From positions 3,720,001 through 3,784,000 of the forward strand of contig NZ_CP032819.1 of assembly GCF_003991565.1 (NCBI RefSeq): a stretch of DNA of 64,000 bases, written 5' to 3'. A program made the position numbers and the translations under genes. The stretch is from Butyricimonas faecalis. GTDB lineage: Bacteria; Bacteroidota; Bacteroidia; Bacteroidales; Marinifilaceae. Positions 37,859 through 44,869 of this stretch are shown here, piece after piece. Every line of letters begins with the position of its first letter. Position 1 is the stretch's first letter. The notes below the pieces were generated by a model that did no database searches, was not told where the DNA came from, and saw only the letters and a list, made by a program, of their open reading frames with translations.

Positions 37859-38899
37859 ATGGAACTGTCGGTACAGGAATATCAATATCTGGTTTCGGAG
37901 ATAACCCGCGAGACGGGTGCCAAACGGGACGGGAGCGGTAAGAACCTTATCGTTCCGCGCTGCCCGTTCTGCGGAAAGTCGGGCGGTAAGTTCGGTATCT
38001 ACATCGGCAAGGCGACTGCCCACCGCCGGCCTTTCATGGCCCACTGCTTCTCCTGCGGGGCATCCACCCGTACATTGGAGCAACTTCTGGCGGCTATCGG
38101 TCGCATGGACCTGATGGTTTTGCAGACAGCTGACATTGCCGCACCGTTGAACCTGCACCTGCTGGAGAAGGACGAGGCGGAAGAAATAGACGACGAACTG
38201 GTGCCGGTCGAATTGCCGGACTTTTACAAGCGCACTTTCCGGCATCCGTATTTGCAGCGGCGCGGCTTCTGTTTCGACGATTACGAGTATTTCCCGGTCG
38301 GGATAACCGGCAGGCTCAATCCGCGCTACGCGGACTATGTCGTCTTTCCGGTCATCGATGACTGTACGGTTGTCGGCTATGTCTCCCGCCATACCTGGCC
38401 GAAAGAGGATATAGACGCCCACAACCGCAAGACCAGACATAGCGGCGGGTACAAGATCCTGCGTTACCGGAACTCCACGGAAAACGACTTTTCCAGACTC
38501 CTTTATAACTACGATGCCGTCCGTATGGATGAAACCGATACGGTCATCCTCGCGGAAGGTATTTTCGATGTCATCGCCCTGACCCGCAGACTCGAACTCT
38601 ATGACAATTCCCATGTCGCAGCCGTGGCCACTTTCGGAAAGAAAATATCCGATGTACAGATCTACAAGCTGCAATCGAAAGGCGTCAGAACCGTAGTCAT
38701 CGGTTACGATGGTGATGCCGTCGAGTCGGTAAAGCGGACGGCTGAACGGCTGAAACCCTATTTCGAGGTTTTCATCGCGGACATTGCTGATGCCGCCAAA
38801 GACTGGGACGAACTCACGGAAGCGGAAATCTACGGGATTTTCGCCTGCCGCCTGCTGTCCGTCCTTGAATACAAACTCAAAAAAGTACAGGAAAGATGA
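37859..38899 (+). CDS. DNA primase (zinc-binding and TOPRIM domains)
   Basis: 346 residues. An N-terminal CHC2-like zinc site is PRCPFCGKS...HCFSCGAS (Cys35, Cys38, Cys63, Cys66). The TOPRIM motif TVILAEGIFDVIAL is near residues 225-240 with the acid-rich second part VIGYDGDAVES near 280. There is no helicase domain, so it is a stand-alone primase working with the DnaB-like helicase. It starts the second half of the replication module after an A+T-rich gap and overlaps the polymerase gene by 4 bases (ATGA). Confidence 0.85.
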   Translation: MELSVQEYQYLVSEITRETGAKRDGSGKNLIVPRCPFCGKSGGKFGIYIGKATAHRRPFMAHCFSCGASTRTLEQLLAAIGRMDLMVLQTADIAAPLNLHLLEKDEAEEIDDELVPVELPDFYKRTFRHPYLQRRGFCFDDYEYFPVGITGRLNPRYADYVVFPVIDDCTVVGYVSRHTWPKEDIDAHNRKTRHSGGYKILRYRNSTENDFSRLLYNYDAVRMDETDTVILAEGIFDVIALTRRLELYDNSHVAAVATFGKKISDVQIYKLQSKGVRTVVIGYDGDAVESVKRTAERLKPYFEVFIADIADAAKDWDELTEAEIYGIFACRLLSVLEYKLKKVQER

Positions 38900-40653
38900 T
38901 ACAGGAACTTTTCTCATGGCTCGATGCACAACGGATAACCTATATCCCGGTCGATACGGAAGTGGTGGATATTCCCGGCTTCGGGCGGCTTTTCACGGCC
39001 GACCTGTCGGGAGTGGAATCCATCTTCCGCGGCGACGGGGACAAGCTCGTGTTCAACCTGATGGAAAGTCCGGATGTGCTGATGGAAGAAGGAATCTTCC
39101 ATGTGGCCTTCCCGTTCGGCAGGAACTGGTACTACTATGACCTGCGGGAAGAATTCCGTTTCAACCTGCTGAAATATATCGGCCGGCCCAAGCCTCCGGT
39201 ACATGATGTACCTTTCGTGAACCTCGGCATCCATACCTCCTACGAGCTGCTGAACGCCTGCTGCTCGCCGGAAGATTTGTGCCGCAAGGCGAAATGGCTC
39301 GGGCATACGGCTGTCGGCATCTGCGACCGCAATACAATGGCCGCCACGCTGAACCTTCAGAAGGAGTGCGCCAATACCGGGCTGAAACATATATTCGGCT
39401 ACTCGCTGACAATGATGCACGAAGAAGAACGTGTCGGGCTGAAGATTTATGCCTTGGATAACGAGGGGCTGCATAATCTGCTGCGCATCCAACGGGCCGT
39501 CATGGTCGATTCGGAAGACAACACCCTCCGCTATGAACAGCTGCTGATGTATGCCGCAGGTTGTGTGGTGGTTTTCGCCATCCGTTCCGTCTACTGGATG
39601 GCCGGACACCCCAAACAGGTGAAGCGTATCCGGAAAGGTGCCGAAGCGGTCTATTACCAGGTCGACGCCAACGAATACAAGGCGGACCGCATCGACAGGG
39701 AGCAACTAGAAGCCCTGAAATATTATTTCGGCAACTGTTATGATGCCGACACGGATTCATTTACAGTAGAACCAGTCCTGATTCCGGACTGCTACTACAT
39801 GGACAAGGACGATGCAGGGTACAGAATCGTGGTGAACAAGATTGCCACGGGAGCCGCCCATGAACAGAGCGATGACCAGTATTTCAAGACAGCGGATGAA
39901 TTGTATGACACGCTCCGTCCTCTGTTCTCCGGGCAATGGGACTTCGATTCCCTGTTTAGGCGCATGTGCCGTCCCACGGTGGAGATTGCCGGACGTGCGG
40001 ACGCCTCATTCGAGACCGGGCGAATGTTCATGCCGGAATACCGTATGCGACCGGAAGAGCGGGAACGGTATGGTGACCGCCGTACGATGTTCCTCCGACT
40101 GCTTGACGACGGGCTGGACCGGAAAGTGCCGGAACCGGAGCGGGAACGCTATCGGGAACGGCTGGACGAGGAAGTCTATATCATTGAATCGACCGACAAT
40201 GTGGACTATTTCCTGGTGCAGTGGGATATGGTGCGGGAGGCGCACCGGAGAGGCATCGCAACTGGTATAGGTCGCGGTTCCGCCGGGGGCTCGCTGGTTT
40301 CCTACTTGCTTGGCATAACCTCCATCGACCCGCTGAAATACGACCTTATCTTCTCGCGCTTCCTCGTGCCGGAACGCTGCGGGCTCAGCTGGAAAGACGA
40401 ACTGACGGTGCTTGCCCCGGACATCACACTCGGCAAGGGCGAACGCTATGTGGAGATGGAATCTGAAGGCAAGACTTACCGTCTGTGCACGGATGCCCGG
40501 ATGCGGGTAATCCGTAACGGAGAAGAGCGGACGATATACGCAGATGAATTGATGTGTGGCGACGAAATCCTTTTTGACCGCCGAGATTGCTTGTGGAACC
40601 TAAAGGAACTCGAAACCCATGAATCCGACCTACGAACACCACCGTCCCTATGA
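38896..40653 (+). CDS. DNA polymerase III alpha chain, N-terminal part (split gene)
   Basis: 585 residues. After an extra N-terminal domain of about 105 residues, a PHP-like domain starts at VNLGIHTSYELL (residue 110) and continues through LGHTAVGICDRNTM. Near the C-terminus are the DnaE blocks GIGRGSAGGSLVSYLLGITS (residues 456-475) and FSRFLVPER. From Cys495 the sequence leaves the DnaE family: a beta-rich stretch runs to YADELMCGDEIL and then a non-conserved tail, part of which overlaps the methyltransferase start. The essential Asp residues are not in this piece but in the gene at 41918, so the two products must combine or be spliced to make an enzyme. Confidence 0.85.
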   Translation: MIQELFSWLDAQRITYIPVDTEVVDIPGFGRLFTADLSGVESIFRGDGDKLVFNLMESPDVLMEEGIFHVAFPFGRNWYYYDLREEFRFNLLKYIGRPKPPVHDVPFVNLGIHTSYELLNACCSPEDLCRKAKWLGHTAVGICDRNTMAATLNLQKECANTGLKHIFGYSLTMMHEEERVGLKIYALDNEGLHNLLRIQRAVMVDSEDNTLRYEQLLMYAAGCVVVFAIRSVYWMAGHPKQVKRIRKGAEAVYYQVDANEYKADRIDREQLEALKYYFGNCYDADTDSFTVEPVLIPDCYYMDKDDAGYRIVVNKIATGAAHEQSDDQYFKTADELYDTLRPLFSGQWDFDSLFRRMCRPTVEIAGRADASFETGRMFMPEYRMRPEERERYGDRRTMFLRLLDDGLDRKVPEPERERYRERLDEEVYIIESTDNVDYFLVQWDMVREAHRRGIATGIGRGSAGGSLVSYLLGITSIDPLKYDLIFSRFLVPERCGLSWKDELTVLAPDITLGKGERYVEMESEGKTYRLCTDARMRVIRNGEERTIYADELMCGDEILFDRRDCLWNLKELETHESDLRTPPSL

Positions 40654-41386
40654 CGGTTGCGACCTTTACCGGGGCGATGCACTCGATGTGCTGCCCCTGC
40701 TGGCTGAAGAAGGCATCACTGCCGACATGGTATTGTCAGACCCTCCATACGGTACGACACATTGTCGATGGGACGCCGTGATAGACATCCCCGGGATGTG
40801 GAATGCTGTACAGGGCATATCCAGACCTGACACTCCCGTACTGCTGTTCTGCCAGCATCCTTTTACGAGCCTGCTGGGCAGCTCCAATCTCCGCAGGCTG
40901 CGGTATGCCTGGGTATGGGAGAAGACGCAGGCGACAGGCTTCCTAAACGCCAGGCGTATGCCGATGAAGGCGCACGAGGACATTCTGGTCTTTTACGACA
41001 GGTTGCCGAAGTATCATCCGATCAAGACGGACGGGCACAAGCGCAAGGTCGTGATGGCCGAACATCAGCGGAAATGCGATGCCGGCGAGATATACCGGAA
41101 GCACGATAATTTCCGGGATTACATATCCACGGAACGCTATCCGCGCAGTGTGCTGAAATTCAAGACGGACAAGCAGCTCTCCTGCCTGCACGCGACACAG
41201 AAACCTGTCGCCCTGCTGGAATACCTGATACGCACCTACACCGACGAAGGAGACATCGTCCTCGACTTTGCGATGGGCAGCGGCAGTACAGCCGTGGCCT
41301 GCCGGAATACGGGACGCCGGTTCATCGGCGTGGAGATAGACCTGGGAATTTTTCAGACAGCACTAAACCGTATAACCCATGGCTGA
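40619..41386 (+). CDS. DNA adenine/cytosine methyltransferase (beta-class, DPPY)
   Basis: 255 residues. The catalytic motif LSDPPYG (residues 40-45) comes before the AdoMet-binding motif I, VLDFAMGSGST near 216-226, giving the beta-type order of N6-adenine and N4-cytosine enzymes. A target-recognition-like insert lies between (ATGFLNARRMPMKAHEDILVF, then KLSCLHATQKPVALLEYLI). DPPY favours N6-adenine. The start overlaps the polymerase N-part by 35 bases and the stop overlaps the HNH gene by 8. No restriction partner other than the HNH protein is seen. Confidence 0.85.
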   Translation: MNPTYEHHRPYDGCDLYRGDALDVLPLLAEEGITADMVLSDPPYGTTHCRWDAVIDIPGMWNAVQGISRPDTPVLLFCQHPFTSLLGSSNLRRLRYAWVWEKTQATGFLNARRMPMKAHEDILVFYDRLPKYHPIKTDGHKRKVVMAEHQRKCDAGEIYRKHDNFRDYISTERYPRSVLKFKTDKQLSCLHATQKPVALLEYLIRTYTDEGDIVLDFAMGSGSTAVACRNTGRRFIGVEIDLGIFQTALNRITHG

Positions 41387-41921
41387 CACCCGGGAAATCT
41401 GGGTGGATATCAAGAACTATGAAGGAAAGTACAAGATCAGCAACCTCGGGCGTGTCAAGAGTCTGGAACGGCAAGTTTCGCATGACGGTATCACCTGGAC
41501 ACAACCCGAACGTATCATGTGTCATTGGTGTGGGACGACTTCGCTCTATGACTGTGTCCGACTCTACAAGGGCGGTGTCGGAAAGAAGTTCTCCGTGCAC
41601 CGTCTGGTGGCACAGCACTTCCTGCCCGACTGGAATCCGGGACTGGAGGTGAACCATATCGACGGGAACCGCGACAACAACCGTGCGGATAACCTGGAAA
41701 TGTGTACGCACCAGCGGAATATGGAACATGCCATAGCGGGTGGCCTCAAACGGGATTACGGCGAGAAAAGCGTGAACGCCAAACTGACCAACGGGCAGGC
41801 GGAAGAGATACGGGTGAGGTATTCCTCCGGCCAGGCTTCCCAGAACAGCCTGGCAAAACAGTACGGTGTCAGCCGCCAGACGGTAAGCGCGATAATACGA
41901 TACAAGAAATATATCAGATGA
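41379..41921 (+). CDS. NUMOD4-HNH homing endonuclease
   Basis: 180 residues. The NUMOD4 DNA-binding motif EIWVDIKNYEGKYKISNLGR is at residues 6-25, an HNH fold with VHRLVAQHF (His74), VNHIDGN (Asn92, His93) and NRADNLEMCT (Asn105) is at about 72-112, and a C-terminal helix-turn-helix NSLAKQYGVSRQTVSAIIR is at 156-174. This is the order of phage HNH homing endonucleases (I-HmuI class). The stop codon overlaps the polymerase C-part start as ATGA. Its target was probably the polymerase gene at the interruption site. Confidence 0.9.
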   Translation: MADTREIWVDIKNYEGKYKISNLGRVKSLERQVSHDGITWTQPERIMCHWCGTTSLYDCVRLYKGGVGKKFSVHRLVAQHFLPDWNPGLEVNHIDGNRDNNRADNLEMCTHQRNMEHAIAGGLKRDYGEKSVNAKLTNGQAEEIRVRYSSGQASQNSLAKQYGVSRQTVSAIIRYKKYIR

Positions 41922-44095
41922 AAGTAACACATATAAGAATCAGGAAAGCAGACGGACCGCTGACGGTCATGGATGCCTTTGTGGACAAAGGACTGACAGA
42001 AGGCGGCCACGCTTCGCTGCCGGACATAGATGTCGACTATGCCTCCGACCGGCGGCAGGAGATCAAGGATTACCTGGAAGAACGGTACAACGCGGACGGC
42101 CGCCAGCGTGTCTTTTCCGCCGGCACCTTTACCACGATGAAACTGAAAGCCGCCTTGAAGGACGTGGCACGCGTACACCGCGTGCCTCACTCCATCGTGA
42201 ACTATATTACCGCCATGATAGATGACGGCACGGACTGGACAGGACTGTTCAGACAGGCTGCCTTCAACAGAAAACTTCGGGACTTTATCCAGACCTATCC
42301 GCTGGTCATCGAGGACGTGCAAGGATTGCTCGGACAGCCCAAAGCGGCCTCCATACACGCCTCGGCCATCGTTGTCACACCGGACACGCGGGACGGCAGG
42401 CCCGCCGAATGCTTCGATTTCCTGCCGGTCCGTAAGATGGACGGGGCACTGGTATCGGAGTTCGACGGCTATTCGGTCGATGAGATCGGATTGTTGAAGG
42501 AGGATGTGCTGGCGACAAAGGAACTTGCCAAACTGAGTGCCGTCATCGCGTTGGTCAACCGGAATTTCGGGCAGGAACTTACTATCGGGCGTATTACGCA
42601 GGATATGCTGGAAGACGGGAAGACCTACCGACTGCTCTCGGACGGCAACACGCAGAATGTGTTCCAGTTCTCTTCGCCGGGCATTACCCGGTTTATCCAG
42701 GATGTACAGCCGGAGTGTATCGAGGACCTGATCGCCATCAATGCCCTGTACCGTCCCGCCACACTCGACATCGGTGCCACCGATGATTATGTCCGTTTCA
42801 GGCGTGGCGAAGTGGCCCCGGTCTATAACTACGGCTGTTATGAAGCAACGAAGAACACTTTCGGAATCATGGTCTACCAGGAGCAGTTCATGTCCGTTGC
42901 TCATACGCTCGGGGGATTCGACCTCGGGAAGACCGACTATCTGCGCAAGGCCATAGGAAAGAAGAAAGCCGACCTGATGGCCACGCTGAAGGCGGATTTC
43001 ATTGCCGGAGCCGTCGGGAACGGATGCCCGGACTATGAGGCGGAGGAAATCTGGCACAAGATAGAGGTAGCCGGGAAATATTCGTTCAACCGTTCCCATG
43101 CCGCGGCATACGCCCTTACAGCCTATTGCGGGGCATGGCTCAAGGCCAATTACCCCTCGGCATTCTACACGGTGGCATTGCAATGGGCGGACGACAAGGA
43201 GATTCCTTCGTTGATGGCGGAGATGGAACGCTGCTCGTCGGCCAAGATCGTGCCGCCGGACATCAACCGCTCCGGGACGGAGTTCTTCACCGACTATGCC
43301 ACCGATGAAATCTTCTGGTCGCTTACCCGTATCAAACAGGTCGGTGTCAAGACAGTGGAATACATCGTCACGGAACGCGACCGGGGCGGGGCATATACCG
43401 GTATCGAGAACTTCATCCACCGCATATTCCGTTACAAACTCAAGAAATACAGTTACTGGGACGACCCCGACAACGCGGAAGAGGCCGTGAAAGTCCCCGT
43501 GAACGCCCGGCATGTCAAGCACATGATCCTTGCCGGATGCTTCGACCGTATCGAAAAAGTCGGGGCGGTTACCGAACGCTGCGCGCTGCTCGAACGCGCA
43601 GCACGGGAACTGGGATTCTCCCTTTCTGAAAAAGACTTCCCGCAGGACATGCGCGGGCGGCATTTCTTCTGGTCGCAGCAGCAGATTGCCGTGTCGGGCA
43701 TAGGCAGCATCGATTATCGCCGCATCTTCAACAATTCGGAAGCCCGCAGGCAGGTCAAGGGAAAAGCCTCTTACCTGACCCTGGACGAGGTGGCACGGGA
43801 CGAGAACGACGGCAGGCGTGCGACTGTCTGCGCCACGGTGGTGGATGTAACCGAACATACCTACAAGGACAGGGAGACGGGAAGCCGGAAGCGTTTCGCC
43901 AAGCTGACACTCTCCCAGAACAACCGTCTGGCGGAATGTGTATGCTGGAACGACTATTACATGGAACACCACACCGTGATCCAGTCGCTCAAAGACCGGG
44001 TGGTCATCCTCACTGCCGTCATCCGTTACAGCGACTACAACGGATGCAATACATTACAGACCTATAGGAACTCATTGTTATTCATTCAATCCTGA
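41918..44095 (+). CDS. DNA polymerase III alpha chain, C-terminal catalytic part (split gene)
   Basis: 725 residues from the ATG at 41918, whose ATGA overlaps the HNH stop. The long open frame upstream of it is antiparallel noise. About 33 unrelated residues (MKVTHIRIRKADGPLTVMDA...) come first, then the polymerase continues with SLPDIDVDYASDRRQEI, holding the catalytic aspartates (Asp36, Asp38), and FSAGTFTTMKLKAALKDV, LLKEDVLATKEL, VFQFSSPGI, FGIMVYQEQFM and YSFNRSHAAAYALTAY. The last 130 residues look like an OB-fold (CATVVDVTEHTYKD, LTLSQNNRLAECVCW). It lacks the N-terminal half. It would work with the DnaQ-like exonuclease 7 bases downstream. Confidence 0.88.
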   Translation: MKVTHIRIRKADGPLTVMDAFVDKGLTEGGHASLPDIDVDYASDRRQEIKDYLEERYNADGRQRVFSAGTFTTMKLKAALKDVARVHRVPHSIVNYITAMIDDGTDWTGLFRQAAFNRKLRDFIQTYPLVIEDVQGLLGQPKAASIHASAIVVTPDTRDGRPAECFDFLPVRKMDGALVSEFDGYSVDEIGLLKEDVLATKELAKLSAVIALVNRNFGQELTIGRITQDMLEDGKTYRLLSDGNTQNVFQFSSPGITRFIQDVQPECIEDLIAINALYRPATLDIGATDDYVRFRRGEVAPVYNYGCYEATKNTFGIMVYQEQFMSVAHTLGGFDLGKTDYLRKAIGKKKADLMATLKADFIAGAVGNGCPDYEAEEIWHKIEVAGKYSFNRSHAAAYALTAYCGAWLKANYPSAFYTVALQWADDKEIPSLMAEMERCSSAKIVPPDINRSGTEFFTDYATDEIFWSLTRIKQVGVKTVEYIVTERDRGGAYTGIENFIHRIFRYKLKKYSYWDDPDNAEEAVKVPVNARHVKHMILAGCFDRIEKVGAVTERCALLERAARELGFSLSEKDFPQDMRGRHFFWSQQQIAVSGIGSIDYRRIFNNSEARRQVKGKASYLTLDEVARDENDGRRATVCATVVDVTEHTYKDRETGSRKRFAKLTLSQNNRLAECVCWNDYYMEHHTVIQSLKDRVVILTAVIRYSDYNGCNTLQTYRNSLLFIQS

Positions 44096-44101
44096 AAAGA
44101 T

Positions 44102-44869
44102 ATGGCACCCAAGACAGAACAGAAGATATATGTAGGCATCGGGCTGGACTTCGAGACCGGAGGGCTGGACTGCCGTGAATGCGCCTGTACACAGATCGCC
44201 CTGCAAGCCGTCCGTTTCGACACATGGCAGGTATTCGACCGCTATCAGGCGTATATCGCCCCCTACGGGAAACAGGACGCGGGGCTTCCCCGACGCAAGG
44301 TGTTGCGTACCCGCCATGAACAGGCGAAAGAACCGGAATATGTCCCGATGAAGTACGAACAGACGGCATTGGACTATTCCGCCATTACCATGGAGATGCT
44401 GCGCACACAGGGTGTGGACATGAAGAAAGTCGCCGGAGAAGTCATCGCCTTCGCCAAACGCAGCACCCTCTCGAAGGGCTATCAGTGCAAGCCCGTGCTG
44501 GTCGGACAGAACATCGCTTTCGATATCGGATTCCTGCAACAGCTGATGAACTATGCCGGACTGGCCGCCGAGTTTGAAAAGACCTTTTCCGGTACCAAGG
44601 ACTATTACGGCAACTTCCAGCCGCACTACATCGACACGCTTGTCATGGGACGGTTGGCTTTTGTCGCTGATCCGGAGGTTACTTCGTATAAACTGGAACT
44701 GGTAGCCTCAAAATTGGGGGTGGAACTGGACGATGCCCACGATGCGGCTGCGGATGTGACGGCCACGCTTGACATCCTGGGGGTCTATACCTCCCGTCTG
44801 CGCCAGACGGAAGGAGCGGCAATCGCTACACAGAAGAAAGAGAAAACCCGTAAATATTTCAAGATATGA
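44102..44869 (+). CDS. DnaQ-like 3'-5' exonuclease
   Basis: 255 residues. Exo I is GLDFETGGLDC (Asp16, Glu18), Exo II lies in VGQNIAFDIGFLQQL (Asp near 141), and Exo III is HDAAADVTATL near 220-230, a full DEDDh set. This is a stand-alone proofreading subunit starting 6 bases after the polymerase C-part and ending in an ATGA overlap with the next gene. The basic C-terminus KKEKTRKYFKI may bind DNA or the polymerase. Confidence 0.85.
   Translation: MAPKTEQKIYVGIGLDFETGGLDCRECACTQIALQAVRFDTWQVFDRYQAYIAPYGKQDAGLPRRKVLRTRHEQAKEPEYVPMKYEQTALDYSAITMEMLRTQGVDMKKVAGEVIAFAKRSTLSKGYQCKPVLVGQNIAFDIGFLQQLMNYAGLAAEFEKTFSGTKDYYGNFQPHYIDTLVMGRLAFVADPEVTSYKLELVASKLGVELDDAHDAAADVTATLDILGVYTSRLRQTEGAAIATQKKEKTRKYFKI

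Follow-up and report, generated by a model that had tools for sequence, protein, structure and literature searches.

A split DNA polymerase III alpha gene in Butyricimonas faecalis with a putatively intein-derived tail and younger mobile genes in its gap

Results

Organisation of the split polymerase locus

The window analysed here is a stretch of 64,000 nucleotides (nt) of the Butyricimonas faecalis chromosome (C1:3720001-3784000), and all feature positions are given in window coordinates. Within this window the gene for the alpha subunit of DNA polymerase III (DnaE) is present as two genes on the plus strand, with two further plus-strand genes between them. The upstream gene (38896..40653) encodes a 585 amino acid N-part with a PHP domain, the first palm segment, and a tail (residues 495-585; 40378..40653) that lies outside the DnaE alignment, is weakly Hint-like and has no intein catalytic residues. 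It is followed by a DNA methyltransferase (MTase) of 255 amino acids (40619..41386) with a PF01555 (N6_N4_Mtase) domain and a DPPY motif, by a putative homing-type endonuclease of 180 amino acids (HNH1; 41379..41921), and by the 725 amino acid C-part (41918..44095), which carries the catalytic palm, the fingers and the HHH domain. Pfam annotation agrees with this division, as the N-part matches PHP and the first part of DNA_pol3_alpha, and the C-part the remainder of DNA_pol3_alpha, the finger domain and HHH_6. All four frames overlap, by 35 bases between N-part and MTase (the final 35 bases of the N-part tail doubling as the MTase start), 8 bases between MTase and HNH1, and 4 bases between HNH1 and C-part, confirming what a preliminary description of this DNA, made from the letters alone, had reported. 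The longest C-part frame spans 41702-44095 and is opened by a GTG at 41702; the ATG at 41918 is the likely start.

An assembly artefact is ruled out by the identical gene order seen in independent genomes among the comparison loci (labelled L with a number), namely L053 from B. gallinarum (100% protein identity; N-part residues 316-585 covered), L059 from B. propionicigenes (100% protein identity; C-part residues 1-295 covered) and L073, from a genome in the same order but a different family (99.6-100% protein identity). Since the covered stretch is 99.6-100% identical at the protein level in all three, this near-identity points to recent wide transfer.

The break lies just ahead of the catalytic motif

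Both parts were aligned with chain 2hnh, which we take to be Escherichia coli DnaE. The N-part reaches residue 399 and the C-part begins at residue 396, placing the break a few residues ahead of the catalytic PDxDxD motif, in agreement with the position given in the preliminary description. The catalytic aspartates (D401, D403 and D555 in the E. coli enzyme) are all located in the C-part; the N-part supplies the PHP domain together with the first segment of the palm. This corrects the preliminary description, in which neither product alone held an active site: it is the palm that is divided between the two proteins, and not the set of catalytic aspartates.

In the window, the C-part opens with a head of about 32 residues (residues 1-32; 41918..42013), the proposed partner of the N-part tail, and continues with the first catalytic motif SLPDIDVDY (residues 33-41; 42014..42040), in which D36, D38 and D40 are invariant in a 12-row alignment. 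Across 22 distinct junctions between head and body, 19 are in frame, and the head starts at an ATG in 18 of these 19; at the L045 junction only the last portion of the head is in frame.

The N-part tail is conserved and probably Hint-derived

Among the matches listed for a query with the complete N-part, 118 of 120 proteins have the tail, and the remaining two have no anchor motif. It is also present in 120 of 120 among the matches listed for a query with the tail of phage BS-TP1, as expected of a set selected by the tail itself. Across the resulting 238 tails, G496 and L497 are invariant. PHROG family phrog_13169 (463 positions) also has the tail at its end and matches the window N-part up to residue 558. 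The family is large, with at least 1866 N-part proteins at an E-value of 0.001 among 7998 scored, and 820 of 880 candidates match the BS-TP1 tail at E-values up to 1. Used as a query against phage records, the whole tail region found only MT835494, BS-TP1 and one chance-level match.

A profile of 15 tails matched six chains of the Protein Data Bank (PDB) at E-values up to 10, three of them Hint-type. With a profile of 24 more diverse tails there were five matches, four of them Hint-type: 5o9j (0.12), presumably the TFIIB intein; 9hth (0.16), a 173-residue DNA polymerase chain whose length and alignment suggest an intein; 2lcj (0.83), the Pab polC intein; and 1at0 (1.3), Hedgehog. The Pfam family Intein_splicing was matched by 10 of the 24 diverse tails (best E-value 9.6e-4), more members than matched any other family. 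In reversed-sequence controls (23 of the 24 tails, L072 omitted), none of five PDB matches was Hint-type and none of the 23 tails matched Intein_splicing. The putative split intein of the PolB of phage MIJ3 has the N-terminal block B NKVIVTEDHSIMV and block N4 LLEVKPTDLTDSDIIL, according to its description (PMC6892783); by eye, the tails resemble both blocks, with an alanine near the position of the histidine. Individually weak, these matches form a pattern with clean reversed controls, and the N-half of a Hint-type (intein) domain is the probable ancestor of the tail.

Several results weigh against this ancestry. No single Hint match of the tail profile against the PDB was significant on its own. 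In the first set, only 2 of 15 tails matched Intein_splicing (BS-TP1, 0.0012; L072, 0.012), fewer than matched E1-E2_ATPase (four) or DUF4784_N (three), and no NCBIfam intein model was matched by these 15. DrmE_C was matched by 6 of the 24 diverse tails. Of these 24, 9 come from the BS-TP1/L072 clade, which may account for most of the signal. No intein family is matched by the tail of the window itself, or by nine C-part heads searched for such families; a direct comparison of the tail profile with a real mini-intein of the same polymerase family (L035, below) gave no match. C495, the position of a would-be intein nucleophile, aligns with a native DnaE position in the 2hnh alignment, and an AlphaFold model of the tail alone is poor (pLDDT, the predicted confidence score, 57.7), though beta-rich. 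Tail and head could thus be an ordinary beta-rich insertion of non-intein origin, inside which the gene was split and whose halves dock. The unsplit polymerase of DAC22, with an insert of about 60 residues at the same place, fits such a history, as do the weakness of each Hint match taken alone, the missing match to the L035 mini-intein and the 2 of 15 first-set tails. The explanation sits poorly with the finding that four of five PDB matches, and the Pfam family matched most often by the 24 tails, are of Hint or intein type, when reversed controls gave none, and we consider it the most serious competitor, possible but on the whole unlikely.

The tail and head lack the residues of protein splicing

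At position 495, 120 of the 238 tails have alanine and 118 cysteine; the cysteine is confined to the window's own clade, where all 118 members of the close set have it. The block-B histidine position, which was set by alignments and falls on or beside the histidine of solved inteins, is occupied by alanine in 228 tails and serine in 10, and by histidine in none of the 238. The HN dipeptide was found ahead of the DnaE motif at none of the 22 distinct junctions, nor in BS-TP1 or the Cellulophaga and Tenacibaculum phages, and residue +1 is alanine in L010, L034, L035 and L048; in the window, GGHA is followed by a serine. A positive control for these residues is provided within the same polymerase family by an in-frame mini-intein of 139 residues in the C-part of L035 (L035:7955-8371), which has C1, TADH and HN before a cysteine, and matches solved inteins at 1.3e-12 and Intein_splicing at 2e-13. 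Its junction is also found in L040 and L058 (L058 from B. oleiciplenus).

These observations bear on an active trans-splicing split intein, the classic fractured gene, in which tail and head would be excised and the N-part ligated to the C-part. Such a reading would account for a break ahead of a conserved catalytic motif, an HNH gene between the parts, a Hint-like tail, the cysteine at 495 throughout the close set and the serine after GGHA in the window, and it has a parallel in phage MIJ3, whose PolB is reported to be split, with a putative split intein and an HNH gene (PMC6892783). However, because the nucleophile position is alanine in 120 of 238 tails, the block-B histidine is missing and HN is missing from all 22 junctions, tail and head should not splice; the alanine at +1 in four loci and the presence of all these residues in the L035 mini-intein argue the same way, and trans-splicing is regarded as improbable.

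Arrival of the methyltransferase and HNH1 after the split

The closest solved chain to HNH1 is 1u3e, an HNH homing endonuclease that we take to be I-HmuI (4.5e-19), and its NUMOD4 and HNH_3 domains place HNH1 among the I-HmuI-like HNH homing endonucleases, as expected from the preliminary description, which had recognised a homing-type nuclease in the break. The closest solved chains to the MTase include ones named DpnA and CcrMI methylases. With a gene broken at a conserved site and an endonuclease gene in the gap, the locus fits a fractured gene with a free-standing homing endonuclease. A group I intron was rejected as an explanation, there being no Rfam match up to an E-value of 1 in window positions 38000-44200 or in L036 6500-9500.

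Related loci differ in what occupies the gap. The polymerase of MA9V-3 is unsplit and has no insert, and that of DAC22 (L005, 3824-7648; 1275 amino acids) is unsplit with its insert of about 60 residues exactly at the site split in other phages; a search of viral contigs for DAC22 relatives gave two stretches, neither confirmed. The N and C genes are directly adjacent in Cellulophaga phi13:1, Tenacibaculum phage Larrie, L034, L035 (the same as L040 and L058) and L048. In BS-TP1 (L001, 6719-8044) a Dda-like helicase gene fills the gap, and in L072 the gap holds an HNH gene, related to HNH1 (47%) and to a second endonuclease, HNH2 (55%), and no MTase. The MTase and HNH1 occupy it in the window and many other loci. 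L010 and L011 retain the MTase with HNH1 reduced to a deletion scar (L010:9480-9535; start and end codons remain), whereas L036, L071, L016 and L017 carry MTase, HNH1 and a second HNH, as does L006, in which HNH1 is truncated and the MTase intact.

A tree of C-part bodies was built with 29 rows, of which 24 form the Bacteroidales group; N and C are separate genes in 22 of these 24. Nested in this group is a clade of 19 rows with 100/100 support, 17 of which show the MTase, the region not being covered in the other two (only part of HNH1 and the C-part are visible in L031, and the N side of L045 was not read), and the adjacent-gene loci L034, L035 and L048 fall outside this clade. The MTase clade is therefore nested among split lineages, which makes the MTase and HNH1 younger than the split; on this tree, the present MTase-HNH1 pair did not create it, contrary to the role first proposed for the pair, and relatives with adjacent genes, a helicase or an HNH gene alone tell against that role as well. 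One point counts against so simple an order of events. The fork joining the MTase clade and the adjacent-gene loci to L072 and BS-TP1 has a support of 81/67, and a related HNH is present in L072, which branches near the base of the tree, so that the gap may once have held an older HNH of this family, which may even have caused the split. With outgroup branches as long as these, the Cellulophaga split may or may not go back to one common event.

It had also been proposed that the MTase and nuclease make up a single self-protecting homing unit and that this unit broke up the gene. They adjoin in most loci of one clade, and no locus whose contig covers the region has HNH1 but not the MTase. The nesting of the MTase clade among split lineages speaks against this proposal, and the two do not always travel together: an HNH occurs apart from the MTase in L072, and the MTase persists beside an HNH1 scar in L010/L011 and beside a truncated HNH1 in L006. 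Because the MTase can occur without an intact nuclease and a nuclease without the MTase, the MTase looks more like a second settler in the gap, and the self-protecting unit appears very improbable.

As a separate observation, a single reading frame spans NUMOD4, HNH and the C-part in four protein clusters of 899-904 amino acids (P0121, P0122, P0123 and P0232); the HNH half of P0232 is in a changed frame relative to the window.

A sister copy has a second endonuclease and a frame break

The same genome contains a second copy of the locus, L036 (C1:935220-940958, minus strand), with HNH2 and a different head. Its head frame has 35 residues, ends in GGHSALP and stops just ahead of DIDVDY, and the body lies in another frame, offset by 7 nt, the letters of which differ between the two lineages that have such an offset. 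This break between head and body was found at 3 of the 22 distinct junctions, representing five records (L006, L036, L071, L016 and L017), and is seen at two or more places on the C-body tree. A search for the pattern recovered two viral contigs, both already among the loci, and, among 393 genomes of the order, the host alone. Frame differences among sisters had been named beforehand as a sign that would refute a functional split pair; they do occur, in the second copy of this genome, while the window copy is free of them.

HNH2 stands out as an additional block when its loci are compared with the closest ones that lack it. Heads are 63-83% identical between window and L036 and 65-74% between L016 or L017 and L019, whereas the flanks are mostly 85-100% identical, except for one 60-nt block of the N-tail at 78%, a pattern that looks like homing with co-conversion. 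A stem-loop of -22.6 kcal/mol ends just before the head stop (1 of 500 mononucleotide shuffles was as low); the unshifted L035 has a similar stem-loop (-18.3). An in-frame TTG lies 12 codons ahead of the body in all five frame-break records. The second-cassette copy may initiate at this TTG and yield a three-piece enzyme, may depend on recoding, or may be dead.

Low dN/dS in both parts of the polymerase

Ratios of nonsynonymous to synonymous substitution rates (dN/dS) were obtained from six loci, only where dS was estimable, and are rough, many dS values being above 1 or not estimable. The C body gave 0.05-0.09 and the C-part head 0.06-0.25, the N body and the MTase both gave 0.07-0.13, and HNH1 gave 0.08-0.13. 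The tail is the loosest (0.10-0.50, partly confounded by its overlap with the MTase start), which counts against the explanation proposed below. Between frame-shifted loci the body ratio is also low (0.019 for L016-L017; 0.107 for L036-L006), though a recent spread of the cassette would be another way to account for this. Because of the low ratios, the two-part polymerase is probably functional, as had been supposed from the outset. A dead polymerase retained merely as a landing site for homing genes, as the frame break in the five records might suggest, is hard to reconcile with low dN/dS in both parts, even between frame-shifted loci, and with a window copy free of such a break, and is judged highly unlikely.

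Neighbouring genes and occurrence

Upstream, a Toprim (primase-like) gene (37859..38899, plus strand) overlaps the N-part start by 4 bases and belongs to the same operon; an RNase_T exonuclease (44102..44869, plus strand), a possible proofreading partner of the polymerase, lies directly downstream of the C-part. By domain annotation the region is prophage-like, with SbcD and SbcC homologues, a sigma factor, a DnaB-like helicase, the Toprim gene, the polymerase, the exonuclease and an integrase. Close C-parts are sparse in species-level bacterial genomes, being found in 3 of 56 of the host's family and 2 of 393 of its order (host included).

Discussion

We propose, with a probability of roughly 0.6, that this locus encodes a long-standing two-subunit polymerase III alpha in which a decayed split intein serves as the docking domain and the MTase and HNH genes in the gap are younger. 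The break would fall within an extra palm segment, made up of N-part tail and C-part head, just before the catalytic DIDVD motif. The tail would be a descendant of a Hint N-half that has lost its splicing residues, the head would be the second half of the Hint-like domain, and the two proteins would dock non-covalently through tail and head, thereby completing the palm. The gap between the genes would have become a settling place for mobile genes, MTase and HNH1 having arrived after the split, the overlapping frames would couple translation, and polymerase and nuclease would both be active. In place of the mechanism first suggested for this locus, we favour a split that is older and lies in a degenerate segment of probable Hint origin. 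A tentative and rather doubtful extension is that the splicing-dead split intein was domesticated as a permanent docking domain and that HNH2 then re-separated the head in at least two lineages, giving a three-piece or recoding-dependent polymerase.

Fractured genes with split inteins and free-standing endonucleases were reportedly described by Dassa in 2009. The present locus shares with these genes and with the MIJ3 PolB (PMC6892783) a replication gene broken at a conserved site, a Hint-like piece at that site and an HNH gene between the parts. It differs in being a C-family polymerase, in 238 tails that have no intein catalytic residues, and in that some of the split loci have a gap free of any endonuclease gene. 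Split phage enzymes with homing endonucleases include the NrdA of Aeh1 with mobE, gp43A/43B of phage 25 and the T4 topoisomerase with mobA, and for phage 25 invasion of an already split gene by the nuclease is also considered possible in a review (PMC2988022). As here, these are pairs of polypeptides needing reassembly, with a nuclease gene at the break. Unlike the PolB, NrdA and topoisomerase splits, this one affects polymerase III alpha, has an MTase beside the nuclease and has a conserved extra tail and head.

I-HmuI-type enzymes are presumably also found in the context of phage polymerases. The solved member 1u3e, with NUMOD4 and HNH_3, is the closest solved relative of HNH1; unlike that type, HNH1 is free-standing between two genes, in a region with no Rfam intron match. 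The second-cassette loci, and only these, share with the bypass element of T4 gene 60 an HNH between the pieces of a split gene, a short frame-disrupting insert, a stem-loop and an adjacent stop codon, as described in PMC5009743. The insert differs in being 7 nt and not 50, and the upstream in-frame TTG allows simple initiation of the body.

Phage polymerases broken beside homing endonucleases or encoded by two genes have already been published (PMC2988022, PMC6892783, PMC10580990). In the titles and abstract openings of the papers listed by literature searches, there was nothing on a split polymerase III or an intein in phages of this kind.

The gene family offers a natural series, from unsplit polymerases through split adjacent genes to gaps holding an HNH, a helicase, an MTase, both MTase and HNH, and finally a second HNH with a frame offset, so that the order and the cost of each step can be tested. 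If the proposed history is correct, it would show how a selfish protein element can end up as a structural component of an essential enzyme, from split intein through loss of splicing to a non-covalent dimer, and an enzyme once dependent on trans-splicing would have turned into a stable two-subunit enzyme.

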